The notes under the pieces: model-generated
What the model was told of the DNA's origin: nothing
The model's database searches: none
Seen by the model: only the letters and a program-made list of their open reading frames with translations
Made by a program: the position numbers and the translations under genes
From: Anaerolineae bacterium
Lineage (GTDB): Bacteria > Chloroflexota > Anaerolineae > Aggregatilineales > Aggregatilineaceae
Reading direction: 5' to 3'
NCBI GenBank assembly: GCA_018432315.1
Contig: JAHDLB010000006.1
Coordinates: 1 to 64,000, forward strand
DNA length: 64,000 nucleotides
In this document: piece after piece, positions 6,144 through 14,357 of the stretch
How the letters are laid out: each line of letters starts with the position of its first letter
Numbering within the stretch: position 1 is the first letter of the stretch

Positions 6144-8210
6144 ATGAAAACAGCACAGTTTGTCGAGGGGCCCGCCGGTTCAGGCAAGACAACCCACGCG
6201 ATCGAGCATATCCGATCGCTGATCGTCGATCAAGGCGTGCGCCCGGACGAAATCTTGCTGCTGGTTCCACAGCGCGTTTTAGGGCGTCCCTACCAGATCG
6301 CGTTTTCGTCGCCCGACTGGCCCGGCGGCGCCGACATCACTCCCGTGACGATTGGCGGGCTTGCCCGGCGCAGTCTGGAATTGTTTTGGCCGCTGATCGC
6401 TGAAAAGGCCGGTTTTGCCCATCCAACCTGGGAACCGGGGTTTCTCACCATCGAGACGGCGCAGTATTTCATGGCGCAGTTCGTCAACGAGGCGGTCGAG
6501 ACCGGCGTGTTTGACAGCATCAGCGTGACGCCGTTTCGAATCATGAACCAGACTCTCGATAACCTCTCCAAAGCGGCGATGAACCAGTTCACGCTCGACG
6601 AAGTTGCGTCGAGGCTCGTCGCTGCCTGGGGCGACCGCCATTCGAGCCGTCCCCCGGTCTATCGTGCCAGCCTGGACCTTGCCGCACGTTTTCGGGATCA
6701 CTGTCTCGAGAACAGCTTGTTGGATTTCTCGCTGCAAATCGATCTGTTCATGAAGGACCTGTTGCAGGAACCGGTGTTTGAGCGGTATGTGAAGCGGGCG
6801 TATCGGCACCTTGTTGCGGATAATCTCGAGGAGAATTTCCCGGTTGTGGCCGACTTCATCCGCTGGGCCTGGGATATGTTGGACTCCGCCCTGCTCGTCT
6901 ATGATACCGACGCGGGGTATCGCAGCTTTCTCGGCGCCGATCCAGCGGGGATGCACGATCTCGCCGATTTGTGCGATGAGGTGCTCGCCTTTCAGCCTCT
7001 GCAATCGGCCAATTCGGCGATACTCGCCCTTGCCGGTGAGTTTTCCAGCCGCCTGGATTCCGCCACGCCGGTGCCCGCCCCTTCACCGGCGAACCCGTTG
7101 GAGGCGGTCCATTTTTCAACGCATACCTTCTATCCTCAGATGATCGACTGGACCGTTGATCGCATCAGCGAACTGGTTGCTGGGGGCGTTTCCCCGCGCG
7201 AGATCGTCGTGCTGGCGCCATTTCTGGGCGATTCGCTGCGTTTTTCCCTGGCCCAGGGCCTCGAGCAGCGGGACATTCCGGTCGTTTCGCACCGTCCCTC
7301 TCGTGCGGTGCGCGATGAACCCGCAGCCCGCACCGTTCTGACGCTCATGTCGCTGGCCTATCCCGAATGGGGCTACGCGCCACCCTCGGCGGACATCGCC
7401 GACGCGTTGGGCCAGGTTATCGACGGCCTGGATCCCGCGCGGGCGTGGCTGCTCGCCACAATTGTCTATAAACAGCAGTCCGGCGAGCTGAGTTCGTTTG
7501 ATGCAATTGAAGCTCGCGCGCAGCAGCGCATCACGTATCGCGCTGGGGAGCGGTACGAGGAACTGCGGCAGTGGCTGGTGGACTCGCGCGATCTGGCGGC
7601 ATCGAACCCGCCGGACGTCTTCATCAGTTACCTGTTTGGGGAAGTTCTGTCACAGCCAGGGTTTGGTTATCATGCGGACCTGGACGCTGGCCGCGTCGTC
7701 GCGGAACTGGTGGAATCCGCGCGGAAATTTCGGCAGACTTTGTACCCGCACGGAATCGAGGACTGGAGTAGCGTTTCGAAGGAATACGTCACGCTGGTGC
7801 GAAAAGGGTTGCTCGCGGCCCTGTATGTGGCAAGCTGGCACGCAGAAGATCAGGACGCAGTTTTTGTGTCTCCGGCCTACACGTTCCTGATGCGCAACCG
7901 TCAGGTGGATTACCAGTTTTGGCTCGATATCGGGAGCAGCCACTGGTGGGAGCGCCTCGAACAGCCGCTCACCCATCCTTACGTGCTGTCGCGTAATTTC
8001 CCTGCTGGTCAAATCTGGACCGACGACCTGGAATACGCGGCCCGGCGCGAGGCGCTGCGGCGGCTGGTGGTAGGGCTTGCGCGGCGGTGCCGGGAGGGGA
8101 TTTTCGCTGTTGCCGCCCAGCTTGGCGAGCAGGGATACGAACAGCAAGGGCCCCTTCTACTGTTGCTCGAGCAGCTTGGGCGGCAGGTTGATGCGGATGG
8201 TGCGGGATGA
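6144..8210 (+). CDS. AddB-like ATPase/helicase-family subunit without nuclease domain
   Basis: A 688-residue protein with a Walker A motif at its very start (GPAGSGKT, 9-16), directly followed by a helix and VRPDEILLLVPQ, as in AddB/RecC-type and UvrD-like proteins. Later segments such as IVVLAPFLGDSLRFSLAQGLEQRDIP resemble the motif IV region. No clear DExx Walker B, motif V or motif VI is visible, so it is probably a structural or DNA-scanning partner rather than a full helicase. Unlike AddB (about 1150 residues), it lacks the C-terminal Fe-S nuclease. Its stop overlaps the ATG of the helicase gene (ATGA, 8207-8210). I chose ATG 6144 over the upstream frame because the predicted promoter lies between. 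Expected partners are the next two gene products. Confidence 0.8.
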   Translation: MKTAQFVEGPAGSGKTTHAIEHIRSLIVDQGVRPDEILLLVPQRVLGRPYQIAFSSPDWPGGADITPVTIGGLARRSLELFWPLIAEKAGFAHPTWEPGFLTIETAQYFMAQFVNEAVETGVFDSISVTPFRIMNQTLDNLSKAAMNQFTLDEVASRLVAAWGDRHSSRPPVYRASLDLAARFRDHCLENSLLDFSLQIDLFMKDLLQEPVFERYVKRAYRHLVADNLEENFPVVADFIRWAWDMLDSALLVYDTDAGYRSFLGADPAGMHDLADLCDEVLAFQPLQSANSAILALAGEFSSRLDSATPVPAPSPANPLEAVHFSTHTFYPQMIDWTVDRISELVAGGVSPREIVVLAPFLGDSLRFSLAQGLEQRDIPVVSHRPSRAVRDEPAARTVLTLMSLAYPEWGYAPPSADIADALGQVIDGLDPARAWLLATIVYKQQSGELSSFDAIEARAQQRITYRAGERYEELRQWLVDSRDLAASNPPDVFISYLFGEVLSQPGFGYHADLDAGRVVAELVESARKFRQTLYPHGIEDWSSVSKEYVTLVRKGLLAALYVASWHAEDQDAVFVSPAYTFLMRNRQVDYQFWLDIGSSHWWERLEQPLTHPYVLSRNFPAGQIWTDDLEYAARREALRRLVVGLARRCREGIFAVAAQLGEQGYEQQGPLLLLLEQLGRQVDADGAG

Positions 8211-10564
8211 CGATGGCCGACTCGGTGCGATTTCGTTCGGAACAAGAGGCAATTCTTGGCTATACGGGCGGCCTGATAGGGGTCGCGGCAGTGCCGGGCA
8301 GCGGAAAGACCTTCACGTTGGCCCATTTGGCCGCCCGCCTGGTGCAGCAGTTGGTCGGTGACCGCGCCTTTGACGTGAGCCAGCCGTCCGAGGTGCTCGT
8401 CGTCACCTTCACCAATGCCGCCGTGAACAGCTTCCAGGCGCGCATCAGCCACATTCTGCGCGAGCACTACAGCGCGATGTCCCCTTACGTCGGGTATCGA
8501 GTTCGCACGCTGCACGGATTGGCTCATGACATCGTGCGCGATCGTCCGTCCCTGGTTGGTCTGGCGGACGATTTTGCGATTCTCGACGAGCGGTTGGCAC
8601 TCGACGCTCAGCGAGTCAGCGTCCTCGAGCGCCTGGCGGTGTGGGGAGATCGCCTGAGCATGTACGCCGATCCGGACGTCGAGCCGCGCACCATCCGCTA
8701 CCGGCTCGAACAGGAGCTTCCCGATCTGGTGAGCGGTGTGATCAAGCGGGCGAAAGACCTCCAGATCGATCCGGAGGAGCTGCAGCGCATGCTGGAGGAC
8801 GTAGAGGGCGATCAACGCTTCGATCTGCTGCGCTTCTCGGCGGAAGTATACGCTGATTACCAGCGGAGCCTGGCTTACCGGGGCGCTGTCGATTTCGATG
8901 ACTTGGTTCGTCTGGCGTTGGAGGCTCTGCAGCGTGACGAGCGCTATCTTCAGCGACTTCGCGATCGCTGGCCGTATATTCTGGAGGACGAAGCCCAGGA
9001 CAGCAGTTTGCTGCAGGAGCAAATGCTGCGGCTTCTCAGCGATCGGCGAAACTGGGTGCGGGTTGGCGACCCGAATCAAGCGATCAACACCACGTTCACG
9101 ACGGCTGATCCCTCTCACCTGCTGGCGTTTTTGGACGATCAGGCGAATCCCGACGTCGTGGAGTATCCGCTGTCCGTCTCCGGGCGTTCGGCGCCACCTA
9201 TCATCGATCTGGCGAACGAGTTGATTCGCTGGACCATCGAAGAGCATCCATCACCGGGAGCGCGAGAGGCGTTCACCTACGAGCACAAGCCCAAACAGGG
9301 GCGGGTACGAGGCGTGATTAAACCGGCTGAGGCTGACGATCCGCAGCCGAATCCGCTCGCCGAAGAGTGTACGATCCATATCCACTTTGTTCCCGGCCAG
9401 AAGATCACGCCGGATGACGAGTTGGAGATGGTCGTGGCGGGAGAGGACTTCTCGCTTGTTGCCTGGATGTCCGAAATCGAACACCTGCCCGAACACGAGC
9501 GCCCCACTGTGGCCGTGCTGGTTCCCGAAAACAGCCGGGGCTTTCAACTGGCAAAGCTGCTCAGGCGGCATGGCGTCCCCTATGAGGAATTGCTACGGAG
9601 CACGTCCGAGACGCGCGAAACGGCGGGAATACTGACGGCGGTGCTGGACTACCTGAGCAGCCCACTGGATTTACGGAAGCTCAAACAACTCTACTGGACC
9701 ATTATGGCTCCGGAGTTGAAGGAGCGGGTGGCCGAGGATATCGATTTGCGAAAGTGGCTCACCGATTTCTTCGCCCAGTTCAGGCACGTTGAGGAGCTGC
9801 TCTGGCCTTCGTCCGGCTTCGAGTGGGGGCAGAATCGGCCTGAAGACGAGGCCACAGTCGTGGGGGATCTTGAGGGATTCAGGGAGCTTGTCTCGCGATG
9901 GCTGGAGGCTACCAGTCTGCCGGTCGACCAGTTAGTTCTGATTGTGGGGCAGGATCTCTTCGCAGAGCCTTCCGATCTCGCGCTGTCGTACAAGATCGCG
10001 GTGCTGTTAGGCAGTATGGCCGAGTCACATCCTGATTGGCGCCTTCCAGAGTTTGCGGGCGAGCTTCGTGTGATCGCCAACAACCAGCGGCGCTTCATCG
10101 GCTTCGATGACGCCGAGGTCGGCTACGAGCCCAAGCCGGGCGTGGTGACGATTGCGACCATGCACAGTGCCAAGGGCCTGGAGTGGGATCGCGTGTACTT
10201 GATGTCGGTGAGCAACTACGGCTTTCCATCTGCCCTGCCCTATGATTCGTACATCGGCGAGAGATGGTATGCGGCAGGGAATCCGTATCGGGGAATCGAG
10301 CACCTGAACCTGGAAGCCGAGGCGATGGCGCAGCTTGAGGCGCTGGTGTCCAATGGCGAGTACTACGAAGGTGACGCCACGCTGGAAGCACGGGTGGAGT
10401 ACGTCAAGGAGCGCTTGCGTTTGCTCTACGTGGGCATCACGCGCGCGCGACGGGAAGTGATCGTCACCTGGAATATGGGACGCCACTGGCAGCAGGGCCG
10501 CGAGAATCAGCCAGCCGTGCCGGTCGTTGCGCTGAAGAGCTTTTTAGGTGTCCACGAGGGATAA
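8207..10564 (+). CDS. UvrD/AddA-type superfamily 1 DNA helicase
   Basis: A 785-residue SF1A 3'-5' helicase with the full motif set: Q-motif SEQEAIL, Walker A VPGSGKT (29-35), Walker B/motif II EDEAQD, motif III GDPNQAI, motif V TMHSAKGLEWDRV and motif VI LLYVGITRARRE. A large insertion between motifs III and V is typical of UvrD 2B-type regions. There is no C-terminal RecB-like nuclease, so it is shorter than AddA/RecB (about 1200 residues). It starts inside the stop codon of the AddB-like gene and ends 12 bases before the stand-alone nuclease. The arrangement implies a three-subunit DNA end-resection machine; the assembly is inferred from gene order and overlap. UvrD/PcrA repair helicase is the alternative reading. 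Confidence 0.93.
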   Translation: MTMADSVRFRSEQEAILGYTGGLIGVAAVPGSGKTFTLAHLAARLVQQLVGDRAFDVSQPSEVLVVTFTNAAVNSFQARISHILREHYSAMSPYVGYRVRTLHGLAHDIVRDRPSLVGLADDFAILDERLALDAQRVSVLERLAVWGDRLSMYADPDVEPRTIRYRLEQELPDLVSGVIKRAKDLQIDPEELQRMLEDVEGDQRFDLLRFSAEVYADYQRSLAYRGAVDFDDLVRLALEALQRDERYLQRLRDRWPYILEDEAQDSSLLQEQMLRLLSDRRNWVRVGDPNQAINTTFTTADPSHLLAFLDDQANPDVVEYPLSVSGRSAPPIIDLANELIRWTIEEHPSPGAREAFTYEHKPKQGRVRGVIKPAEADDPQPNPLAEECTIHIHFVPGQKITPDDELEMVVAGEDFSLVAWMSEIEHLPEHERPTVAVLVPENSRGFQLAKLLRRHGVPYEELLRSTSETRETAGILTAVLDYLSSPLDLRKLKQLYWTIMAPELKERVAEDIDLRKWLTDFFAQFRHVEELLWPSSGFEWGQNRPEDEATVVGDLEGFRELVSRWLEATSLPVDQLVLIVGQDLFAEPSDLALSYKIAVLLGSMAESHPDWRLPEFAGELRVIANNQRRFIGFDDAEVGYEPKPGVVTIATMHSAKGLEWDRVYLMSVSNYGFPSALPYDSYIGERWYAAGNPYRGIEHLNLEAEAMAQLEALVSNGEYYEGDATLEARVEYVKERLRLLYVGITRARREVIVTWNMGRHWQQGRENQPAVPVVALKSFLGVHEG

Positions 10565-10576
10565 GGGTGTAACATA

Positions 10577-11407
10577 ATGCTGCCTAGCGATTTTCGATTC
10601 AGCCAGACCAGTCTGCAGGATTATGTGGATTGTCCGCGGCGTTTTCAGTTGCGGTACGTGGATGCGCAGCCCTGGCCGGCGGTCCAGTCACAGCCTGTGC
10701 TGGAGCGCGAACGCCATCTGGATCTAGGAACGCGGTTTCACCGTCTCGTCGAGCGGCATCAGTTGGGGATGGAGCCGGACACTCTGGCGCGTACGGTAGA
10801 CGATCCTCAGCTTCAAGCATGGTGGTCGGCATATCTTGGGTTCGATTATCTGCATACCATGGAGGGAGAGCGCTTCCCCGAATTTCGTGCGTCGGTCGAT
10901 ATCGAGGGGCATCGTGTTGTCGTGGCGTATGATTTGCTGGTGTTGCGGCCTGAGGGGAATGTCGTGATTCTCGATTGGAAGACGCATCGTTGGCCTCCAT
11001 CAGCGGAGTGGTTCGCGGCGCGTATGCAGTCGCGCCTGTATCCGTTGGTGCTGGTTTTGGCTGCGCGGCGGGGTGTTTTTGGTGCTGTGGTGCGTCCGGA
11101 GCAGGTTTCTCTGGTGTACTGGTTGGTGGGATCGTCTGGTGATGTGGTTGAGTTTGCCTATAACGAGGCGCAGTTCGAGAGCGATCTGTCGTATGTGGGG
11201 TCGGTGTTGCGGGGGGTCGATCGTGAGTCGGCTCGTGAGGAGTGGTTCAAGACGGCGGATGAGGCGCAGTGTCGGCTGTGTGAGTATCGATCGTTGTGTG
11301 GGCGGGATGTGGAAATTGGTGCGTTTGATCAGTTTGGTATCGATGTTGGTAATATTGTGAGTGATGATGTTGTTTTGTTTGAGGATGTGTCTGAGGTTGG
11401 TTTTTGA
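10577..11407 (+). CDS. Stand-alone RecB-like PD-(D/E)XK nuclease with 4Fe-4S cysteines
   Basis: A 276-residue nuclease of the RecB/AddB/Cas4 superfamily. Active-site residues are visible: H55 in GTRFHRLVE, D119, the D-x-K pair D133/K135 in ILDWKTH, and Q151/Y155 in the QxxxY helix. Four cysteines have the iron-sulphur layout of AddB and Cas4: C19 in DCPRRF, then C232, C235 and C241 near the C-terminus. It is probably the cutting module of the preceding two proteins, supplied in trans. The last 300 bases are extremely G/T-rich on the coding strand, unlike the following gene. Its TGA shares a base with the ATG of recJ (TGATG). A Cas4-like role is unlikely, as no CRISPR genes are present. Confidence 0.92.
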   Translation: MLPSDFRFSQTSLQDYVDCPRRFQLRYVDAQPWPAVQSQPVLERERHLDLGTRFHRLVERHQLGMEPDTLARTVDDPQLQAWWSAYLGFDYLHTMEGERFPEFRASVDIEGHRVVVAYDLLVLRPEGNVVILDWKTHRWPPSAEWFAARMQSRLYPLVLVLAARRGVFGAVVRPEQVSLVYWLVGSSGDVVEFAYNEAQFESDLSYVGSVLRGVDRESAREEWFKTADEAQCRLCEYRSLCGRDVEIGAFDQFGIDVGNIVSDDVVLFEDVSEVGF

Positions 11408-13737
11408 TGGCTAATGACTACGCGAAATTCATAGACTGGATTCCTCCAGCCGACACAACCCCCTCACCTGCATTCCTCGAAGCGACCCAGACCAACCCAC
11501 TCACGGCTCAAATCCTGCTCCGGCGCGGGATCACGTCGCCTGAAGCGGCGCTCGCGTTCCTGTACCCCGAACACTACACCCCTGCCCCACCGGGCGACCT
11601 GCCGGATATTGTTGCAGCGGTCCGAATTATCGAGGATGCAATTGCGCAGGGCGATCGCATCCTAATCTGGGGCGACTTCGATGTCGATGGGCAGACAGCA
11701 GTGGCGCTGTTGTTGGATGCGCTGCAGTCGCTGGGGGCTGATACAGTTTATTACATTCCGGATCGCATGCAGGAGTCGCACGGCGTTCACATCAAATCAC
11801 TGGAGCAACGGCTTGCGGATGTGAAACCCGCGGTTTTGCTGACGTGTGATACGGGTGTTTCGGCTTATGTGGCGATTGACTACGCGAAGTCTCGCGGCCT
11901 TTGGACCGTCATCACCGATCACCACGATCTGCCAGCCACCTTGCCGGATGCGGATGCTGTGGTCAACCCAAAACGCCTTGATCCAGCACACCCGCTGGCA
12001 ACCCTGCCTGGTGTCGGTGTGGTCTACAAACTCGTCGAGTATCTCTACGGCTCGCGCGGCTGGGATCGTGATGTGCCGCGCTTCCTCGACCTCGTCGCGC
12101 TCGGCATCGTGGCCGATGTGGCGAGCCAGACGGGCGACACCCGGTACCTGCTTCAACTCGGTTTGCGAGAGCTTCAGCGCACCCGGCGAGTGGGGATTCA
12201 CGCACTGGCGGCGGCTGCCGGTCTATCGCTGGAGGCTCTCTCCACCAGCGATATCGGCTTTCAACTGGCACCGCGGCTCAACGCGGCTGGCCGGCTCAGC
12301 AGCGCATCCCTGGCCGTGGAGCTGCTCACCGCCACTGATACGGCACAGGCCCAACTGTTCGCCACCCAATTGGAGGGTCTCAACAGCCGGCGCCGCCTGC
12401 TCAACCAGCAAATCCTGACCGCCGCGCAGGAACGCATCGCCCGCGATCCGTCCCTGCTGGACTGGACCGCCCTGATGATCGACCACCCGGCATGGCACAG
12501 CGGCGTCATCGGGATCGTCGCCAGCCAGCTCGCCGAACGGTACCAGCGCCCCGTCGTGCTGCTCAGCGTGAACGAGGACGGGCTGGCTCGCGGCTCAGCG
12601 CGCTCGAGCGCGGGATATGACATCGGCGCGGCGATTACGGCACAGGCCGATCTGCTGCTCCAGTTCGGCGGGCATCCTGGTGCCGCCGGGATGTCCCTGC
12701 CCGCCGACAACATCCCGGCATTCCGCCGCCGCCTGTCAGCCGCGTTGGCCGAACAGACGCCGGTCGCAGCCTCGCAGTCGCTCACCATCGACGCGGAACT
12801 ATCCCTGGGCGAGATCACGATCGACCTGATCAACGCGCTGAACCGCCTGGGGCCGTTTGGCGAAGGCAATCCCCCTATCACGCTCGTCACGCCCAACCTC
12901 ACGCTCAAGAGCGCCGCTCACTTTGGGACGGAGCGTCAGCACCGGCGCCTGACCATCGAGGACGAAGCGGGCGCCAAACAGAAAGTCGTCTGGTGGAACG
13001 GCGCCGAGAACTCACTACCAGAGGGTCTGTTCGATCTGGCTTATCGATTGGACTTATACCCCGTCGATGGACAGCTCGAACCACAGCTCACCTGGGTGGA
13101 CTGCCGCCGGTCTGCGAGCGCGCCGGTTCTTGTCGAACCGCCCAAACGCGAGGTTGTCGACCTGCGTTCCGCAAGTGAGCCACGCGCAGCCCTGGCGGGC
13201 GCGCTTGAGAGCTATCCGGACGCAGTCATTTGGGCGGAGGGGTTTCGCCAAGCCGAGTCGCCTGGAGTGCCTCTCGCTGCGCTGTCCAGGGCGGAGGCGT
13301 TGATCGTTTACACCAGCCCCCCCGCCCCGCAAGCCTTGCGCGAAGCGCTCGAACAGGCTCAGCCCACAACGGTGATCCTGATCGGTGTCGATCCGCCATT
13401 CAAGACGGTCGCCGACATCCAGCGCCGCATCCTCGAACTGGTCAAACACGTCCTGAACCGTCAAGATGGCCGTACGACCATCGACGCATTAGCCGCGGCA
13501 GTTGGACACACGACGACAACCGTTCGCTGTGTTCTGGCGCTATCCGAGGCATCCGGTGAAATCACGCTGGAATGGGAGCGAAACGGCGGTATACTGATTA
13601 GGCGGAGCCACGGCAGCCGGCGCGCGGATATTCGTGACCAACAGGCAGCGCTGGCGGCCAGCGTGGCCGAGACAGCCGCTTACCGTGCCTATTTTCGTCG
13701 TGCTGCAGCGCAGCACGTGCTTGGCTGGGAGACATGA
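11407..13737 (+). CDS. recJ: Single-stranded-DNA-specific exonuclease RecJ
   Basis: A 776-residue 5'-3' exonuclease acting on single-stranded DNA in recombination and mismatch repair. DHH-family motifs are visible: DFDVDG (90-95), CDTG, the name-giving DHH (171-173) and LNAAGRLSSA. The DHHA1 domain ends with FGGHPGAAGM. An OB-type region follows, then about 200 extra C-terminal residues ending in a winged-helix-like segment. The total length resembles Bacillus RecJ more than the 577-residue E. coli form. ATG 11407 overlaps the nuclease stop; the TTG at 11404 is less likely. Its place behind helicase and nuclease genes supports cooperative end processing. The stop overlaps the YigZ-family start by four bases. 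Confidence 0.96.
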   Translation: MANDYAKFIDWIPPADTTPSPAFLEATQTNPLTAQILLRRGITSPEAALAFLYPEHYTPAPPGDLPDIVAAVRIIEDAIAQGDRILIWGDFDVDGQTAVALLLDALQSLGADTVYYIPDRMQESHGVHIKSLEQRLADVKPAVLLTCDTGVSAYVAIDYAKSRGLWTVITDHHDLPATLPDADAVVNPKRLDPAHPLATLPGVGVVYKLVEYLYGSRGWDRDVPRFLDLVALGIVADVASQTGDTRYLLQLGLRELQRTRRVGIHALAAAAGLSLEALSTSDIGFQLAPRLNAAGRLSSASLAVELLTATDTAQAQLFATQLEGLNSRRRLLNQQILTAAQERIARDPSLLDWTALMIDHPAWHSGVIGIVASQLAERYQRPVVLLSVNEDGLARGSARSSAGYDIGAAITAQADLLLQFGGHPGAAGMSLPADNIPAFRRRLSAALAEQTPVAASQSLTIDAELSLGEITIDLINALNRLGPFGEGNPPITLVTPNLTLKSAAHFGTERQHRRLTIEDEAGAKQKVVWWNGAENSLPEGLFDLAYRLDLYPVDGQLEPQLTWVDCRRSASAPVLVEPPKREVVDLRSASEPRAALAGALESYPDAVIWAEGFRQAESPGVPLAALSRAEALIVYTSPPAPQALREALEQAQPTTVILIGVDPPFKTVADIQRRILELVKHVLNRQDGRTTIDALAAAVGHTTTTVRCVLALSEASGEITLEWERNGGILIRRSHGSRRADIRDQQAALAASVAETAAYRAYFRRAAAQHVLGWET

Positions 13738-14357
13738 TCAAATATCCGATTCCCGCCCAGACGATCCGGATCGAAAATGTGGTTGTCAATTCGCGCTTCA
13801 TCGCGACCATCGGTCGGGCGGACACCGTCGAGCAGGCGAAGACGTTCATCCAGTCCATCCGCCAGGAAATGCCGGATGCGACGCATCACGTCTACGCCTA
13901 CAAGGTGGGCTACGGCAGCAGCGTGATCGAAGGCATGTCCGACGATGGCGAGCCCTCAGGCACCTCCGGCCCTCCGGTGCTGGCCGTCCTGCGCGGAGCC
14001 GATCTCGGGGACGTGGCGCTCGTCGTCACGCGCTATTTCGGCGGCACCAAGCTGGGAACAGGGGGTCTCGTCCGCGCGTATGGCGGCGCTGCCAAAGACG
14101 CGGTGGCAGCGCTGCCGGTCGAGATGAAAATCCCCAAACATTACATCGGAACGACCGTGCATTACAGCGTCTACGAGCGGGTCAAGCTCTTGCTGGCCGA
14201 ATATCAGGCCGAGACGGACAGCGAAGAATTCGGTGCAGAAGTGACGATCTACGCCCATATTCCCATCGACACGTTCGAGCCGTTCTGCGCCGCCGTTCTC
14301 GAACTGACTGCCGGCCAGGTCACCCCGATCATCCTGGAAGAAGCCGCGGACGCGTGA
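13734..14357 (+). CDS. YigZ/IMPACT family protein
   Basis: A 207-residue protein of the UPF0029/IMPACT family, related to eukaryotic IMPACT, a regulator of translation-stress kinase signalling. The bacterial role is not settled. Family motifs are clear: DATHHVYAYKVG (about 46-57), DDGEPSGTSGPPVL, then VVTRYFGGTKLGTGGLVRAYGGA (about 97-120). The C-terminal part (about 135-205) is the usual EF-G domain V-like ferredoxin fold. It overlaps recJ by four bases (ATGA), so it is the last gene of the recombination operon. A gap of 34 bases leads to the protein kinase gene, which may be in the same transcript. Confidence 0.94.
   Translation: MIKYPIPAQTIRIENVVVNSRFIATIGRADTVEQAKTFIQSIRQEMPDATHHVYAYKVGYGSSVIEGMSDDGEPSGTSGPPVLAVLRGADLGDVALVVTRYFGGTKLGTGGLVRAYGGAAKDAVAALPVEMKIPKHYIGTTVHYSVYERVKLLLAEYQAETDSEEFGAEVTIYAHIPIDTFEPFCAAVLELTAGQVTPIILEEAADA

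Follow-up and report, generated by a model that had tools for sequence, protein, structure and literature searches.

The window analysed here, a 64,000-nucleotide stretch of a contig from an Anaerolineae bacterium, contains four tightly packed open reading frames on the forward strand. P0001 (6144–8210) encodes an AddB-like pseudo-helicase of 688 aa without a nuclease domain, P0002 (8207–10564) encodes an intact SF1A helicase of the UvrD/PcrA/AddA type of 785 aa that is also without a nuclease domain, P0003 (10577–11407) encodes a predicted stand-alone AddB-type Fe-S PD-(D/E)XK nuclease of 276 aa, and P0004, which spans 11407–13737 from an ATG and has a possible TTG start at 11404, encodes a long RecJ paralogue. 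P0001 and P0002 overlap by ATGA at 8207, P0002 and P0003 are separated by a 12-base gap (10565–10576), and P0003 and P0004 overlap by TGATG (11405–11409) such that the start of recJ lies across the stop of P0003. This layout of four overlapping or nearly abutting genes had been proposed in a preliminary description of the DNA, and both the Pfam domains and the junctions agree with it. Homologues of P0001 were found in 55 of 61 relatives, mostly at 40–65% identity, and thus the four reading frames are real and far above chance. At 13734–14357 lies a UPF0029/DUF1949 (YigZ/IMPACT-like) gene, which shares four bases with the end of recJ, at its stop, and whose translation may be coupled to that of the operon. 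The neighbouring genes in the window are housekeeping-like.

In Pfam, P0001 gave only a weak match to the N-terminus of UvrD (3e-5), and its ADDB_N match (0.078) remained under the cut-off; a PDB sequence search with P0001 and P0003 returned nothing useful. The protein carries the Walker A motif GPAGSGKT, of which K15 is kept in 99% of 86 sequences. Motif II is degenerate (DNLEE), with Asn227 replacing the catalytic glutamate, and in the same 86 sequences N227 is conserved in 92% and D226 in 93%. The AlphaFold model (pLDDT 88.8, pTM 0.86) has a complete SF1A fold, which aligned over nearly its whole length with AdnB (Z 25.1, rmsd 4.5 over 598 residues) and with AddB (Z 22.7, rmsd 6.0 over 610 residues), spanning AddB residues 2–696. 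The top Z scores in the fold searches with both the P0001 and P0002 models came from UvrD/PcrA/Rep, mostly with rmsd of 8–12 Å, whereas the AddB, AddA and AdnB matches covered more residues at lower rmsd, and the family of these two proteins was therefore not assigned by Z alone. In profile comparison P0001 was nearest to AddB (1.3e-14), with PcrA close behind (1.4e-12) and AddA far below (3.5e-6), and direct BLAST against the AddB of the same genome recovered just the Walker A motif and a weak 101-residue stretch. The profile ranking and the predicted structure together uphold the earlier assignment of P0001 as AddB-like and indicate a likeness to the N-terminal half of AddB, an inactive SF1-like half from which the nuclease is absent. 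As the catalytic glutamate is lost, P0001 probably keeps the helicase-like shape to bind DNA, and perhaps ATP, and by analogy with AddB would be a scaffold or scanner that does not translocate.

P0002 matched UvrD in Pfam (2e-44) and its motor motifs are invariant among 61 sequences. No PDDEXK match was found in it by Pfam, and the chain ends after motif VI. Its AlphaFold model (pLDDT 89.0) could be superimposed on AddA (4ceh_A; Z 28.1, rmsd 4.6 over 669 residues). The earlier reading of this protein as an AddA/UvrD helicase without a nuclease holds for the intact motifs but not for its closeness to AddA, because the nearest profile was that of UvrD/PcrA (PcrA, 8e-53) and AddA came after it (6e-39). 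P0002 would be the sole motor of the set, unwinding the DNA end as an SF1A 3'–5' helicase.

P0003 matched PDDEXK_1 in Pfam (8e-26), and the residues named earlier as its active site and cluster ligands are indeed at their positions: K135, C19, C232, C235 and C241, as well as H55, D119, Q151 and Y155, are present in 52 of 52 sequences, and D133 in 51 of 52. In profile comparison it was closer to the AddB nuclease (9.7e-11) than to that of AddA (1.9e-3), and it fell under the Cas4 cut-off (TIGR00372, 14.7 bits against 65; PADLOC Cas4 models were weak, 1e-7 at best). These comparisons agree with the proposed stand-alone nuclease and identify it by sequence as a detached AddB-type nuclease with a predicted Fe-S cluster held by four cysteines. 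No second PD-(D/E)XK gene was found in this locus. At the C-terminus of P0003 is a conserved acidic-hydrophobic-aromatic peptide, LFEDVSEVGF (11375–11404, forward strand), for which FEQIAEIEF is typical of relatives and which occurs in 38 of the 49 complete proteins from the loci. Of 18 genomes with the long RecJ, 17 had this tail, whereas all four sampled genomes that keep P0001–P0003 but not the long RecJ lacked it (p = 7e-4 in a post hoc test with few losses; G023 and L134 are exceptions). Since the tail is kept with the long RecJ and is absent where the latter was lost, it is a candidate docking peptide, and its distribution suggests that it docks RecJ. A mimic of the SSB tail was considered and rejected: the SSB tails of these genomes end mostly in DYPF, DLPF, DIPF or EFPF, and the penultimate proline is absent in P0003. 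The likeness to the SSB tail is general only, and the L119 and L133 proteins have extra residues after the motif.

RecJ is a 5'–3' single-strand exonuclease. P0004 contains the complete RecJ domain set (DHH/DHHA1/RecJ_OB in Pfam; TIGR00644 2e-142, 475 bits against a cut-off of 397), followed by a C-terminal extension of ~200 aa with a weak winged-helix match at 671–708. The identification of the fourth gene as recJ stands, but the preliminary description had missed that the genome encodes two RecJ proteins, the 777-aa operon copy and a canonical 585-aa copy on contig C14.

The distribution of the set was surveyed in related genomes. P0001 is single copy in the relatives, except for split hits in two genomes; within its own order it is nearly fixed, and it is common in the class as a whole. 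Among 300 genomes drawn from the phylum, strong matches occurred solely in the class of this genome, and a contig search for P0001 relatives returned 406 stretches, the best 80 of which were from Chloroflexi or subgroups such as Anaerolineae. Phage records and viral contigs searched for relatives yielded none. The order P0001–P0002–P0003–RecJ is kept in most loci, with the first two genes adjacent in 50 of 74, the helicase and nuclease in 39 of 52 and the nuclease and RecJ in 25 of 45; the first two lie apart in 24 of 74 loci. P0002 accompanied P0001 in 23/23 genomes and was found in 0/9 genomes lacking P0001 (Fisher 3.6e-8, ignoring relatedness); the corresponding counts were 22/23 and 0/9 for a P0003-type nuclease and 18/23 and 0/12 for the long RecJ (Fisher 7e-6, ignoring relatedness), all of these counts being phylogenetically non-independent. 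The canonical short RecJ, unlike the long one, occurs nearly everywhere. The long RecJ was undetected in 5 of the 23 genomes with P0001, which makes RecJ an optional member of the set. In G163 and G343, each a single contig, all four genes are present, with the nuclease and RecJ far from P0001–P0002, and G033 has a P0003-type gene and no P0001 match. To judge from this co-inheritance of helicase, nuclease and long RecJ with P0001 across Anaerolineae, the parts belong together and are functionally linked even where they are scattered, as had been supposed from the single locus. The co-inheritance indicates that RecJ belongs to the module, and if it does, the single cutting site attributed to the set is wrong; a second detached nuclease also occurs in some relatives. 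In certain f3-type relatives another stand-alone PDDEXK gene (331–340 aa, with the Cys motif) was located directly upstream of the P0001 homologue (L170:1673–2668, L173:1457–2479, L103:5390–6406 and L106:8935–9954), and these loci thus contain two detached nucleases.

A complete addB-addA pair was found side by side on contig C48 of the same genome (L046:3865–11260). Its AddA contains UvrD plus PDDEXK domains (TIGR02785 1.8e-104), and its AddB gave ADDB_N (5.6e-20), PDDEXK_1 (1.6e-36), TIGR02773 (5e-48) and a PDB AddB chain match (2e-21). The operon is thus not the reduced AddAB of the genome, as first thought, nor its only one, but an additional set; a complete addAB elsewhere in the genome had been named beforehand as a finding that would overturn the earlier reading. 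Among the 61 relatives, ADDB_N was above the cut-off in 29, with none in the sampled families f3 and f4, nor in most of f7, and the four-gene set and AddAB coexist in about half of the sampled members of its own order. A PDDEXK_1 reading frame above 1000 aa was found in none of the 13 genomes that have P0001 but AddB under the cut-off, and among the other sampled genomes of the class with P0001, 15 of 19 had no AddAB/RecB nuclease reading frame above 1000 aa. In many relatives no RecB-family helicase-nuclease set other than the split one was detected, and because the larger reading frame was not found there, the module could fill the AddAB/RecB role in these organisms. In six genomes of the class (G251, G302, G237, G272, G332 and G179) the searches returned no split set and no AddAB/RecB-type nuclease reading frame above 1000 aa.

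Outside the phylum, all four genes occur in the same order and at 32–40% identity on plasmid pSR56 of Salinibacter ruber (L162; NC_014028.1:10001–17884). The set there lies near an XRE regulator, and the plasmid is rich in restriction-modification genes, with type I systems and other methyltransferase and helicase genes, surroundings that point equally to defence. The tree of P0001 homologues has long branches, and the Salinibacter copy had no fixed place in it. A lone P0001-type pseudo-helicase with a degenerate VDNLEN motif II is also present on pILYOP01 of Ilyobacter polytropus (Fusobacteriota; L163:7983–9956), where neither a helicase nor a nuclease gene adjoins it.

The set was compared with known end-processing systems. 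Like AddAB, it has a single SF1A motor, an inactive partner of SF1 shape and an AddB-type Fe-S PD-(D/E)XK nuclease, and P0001 and P0003 between them align with AddB residues 2–696 and its C-terminal nuclease. It differs from AddAB in that AddB is split into two reading frames with the helicase gene between them, the AddA-type C-terminal nuclease is absent, the motor is nearer to PcrA by sequence, a dedicated RecJ is included, and true AddAB coexists with it in this genome. In the AdnAB of mycobacteria each subunit bears nuclease and helicase on one chain; P0001 and P0002 match the fold of AdnB over their whole length at 4.0–4.6 Å, but neither helicase-like chain of this set has a nuclease. Unlike RecBCD, the operon has no RecB with a C-terminal nuclease and no RecC or RecD reading frames, and P0003 is a separate chain. 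In Clostridiales an unfused uvrD and cas4-like pair suggested to act in DNA repair likewise has adjacent, separate genes for a UvrD-type helicase and a pfam12705 nuclease, but no AddB-like protein or RecJ is reported for it in the description used for this comparison (PMC5704561). No published account of the four-gene set was found in the literature searched, the nearest being AddAB/AdnAB and the Clostridiales operon. Taken as a whole, the set is a probable DNA-end-processing module of four genes conserved in Anaerolineae, AddAB-like but in separate proteins and with its own extra RecJ.

On the observed gene content, domain architecture, conserved catalytic residues, predicted P0001 and P0002 folds and co-inheritance, we consider it fairly probable that the four genes form one dedicated DNA-end resection module, with one motor and with P0003 and RecJ both acting on the 5' strand. 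From these features we infer a physical complex, its strand polarity, the docking through the tail and a role in homologous recombination. AddAB uses a single SF1A motor while the inactive helicase domain of AddB scans for Chi, and its AddA nuclease cuts the 3' strand and its AddB nuclease the 5' strand (PMC4824097). As a separate subunit, P0003 would cut the 5'-terminated strand like AddB, and the long RecJ, possibly recruited through the P0003 C-terminal peptide, would finish that strand. As the set lacks an AddA-type nuclease that would act on the 3' strand, 3' overhangs would be formed from the start, with no destructive phase and no need of a Chi switch. By homology, the motor, scanner and 5'-strand nuclease of AddAB would have been kept, the 3'-strand nuclease lost and a 5'–3' exonuclease gained. 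Several findings speak against this reading: the genome already carries AddAB and for this role alone would not need the module, P0002 is nearer in sequence to PcrA than to AddA, the long RecJ is not detected in every genome with P0001, and the plasmid copy has a defence-like setting.

The set might instead be a barrier to plasmids, transforming DNA and phage, with incoming linear or nicked DNA destroyed by the helicase and the 5'-strand nucleases and recombination left to AddAB/RecFOR. In Synechococcus elongatus, transfer or maintenance of RSF1010 increases and natural transformation profits when cas4, a uvrD paralogue, the RecJ paralogue recJcy or a PD-(D/E)XK protein is lost; these are the same three enzyme types, likened by type and by description, and the helicase and RecJ each stand alongside a housekeeping paralogue, but the genes were studied together with Argonaute and no AddB-like partner was named (PMC10653904). 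The restriction-modification genes around the Salinibacter copy and the association of fused UvrD-Cas4 proteins with defence genes (PMC5704561) agree with such a barrier. We nevertheless regard this strong rival as less likely than a resection module: unlike patchy defence genes the set is nearly fixed and single copy in its order and common in the class, its neighbours in the window are housekeeping-like, and it was without a match among phage records and viral contigs.

A role at stalled replication forks or gaps, where helicase, Fe-S nuclease and RecJ would process DNA before RecFOR loading rather than at double-strand ends and P0001 would be a fork-recognition factor, appears less likely still. 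Helicases of the UvrD/PcrA type act at forks, and the profile nearest to P0002 is that of PcrA. The coexistence of AddAB with the set in its own order and the action of RecJ with RecFOR at gaps (PMC1193525) are consistent with this role, but AddB, which P0001 and P0003 jointly reconstitute, is known to work at double-strand ends, and AddAB is absent in many relatives that have the set. Separate action of four proteins grouped merely as DNA-repair genes would suit the dispersal of the genes in many relatives, but is highly improbable given that their presence and absence coincide across the dispersed genomes and that the set is intact on a plasmid of another phylum.

Returning to a dedicated resection module, a wider proposal is made tentatively and with some doubt: the set may represent a further class of end-resection machine beside RecBCD, AddAB and AdnAB, built from a single motor, a scanner derived from a helicase fold, an Fe-S nuclease on its own chain and a dedicated RecJ docked on the C-terminal peptide of that nuclease. 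With both nucleases acting on the 5' strand, its resection would be recombinogenic throughout, and many Anaerolineae would have it as their main resection machine. In AddAB and RecBCD the motors and nucleases are welded into large chains, and Chi switches them from destruction to repair. Resection by a helicase with a separate nuclease is carried out in archaea by HerA-NurA and in eukaryotes by BLM/Sgs1 with Dna2. A naturally dismantled AddAB-like set would allow each activity to be added or removed singly, would give a bacterial counterpart to these archaeal and eukaryotic systems, and would indicate how recombination could be initiated without AddAB in many members of the class.
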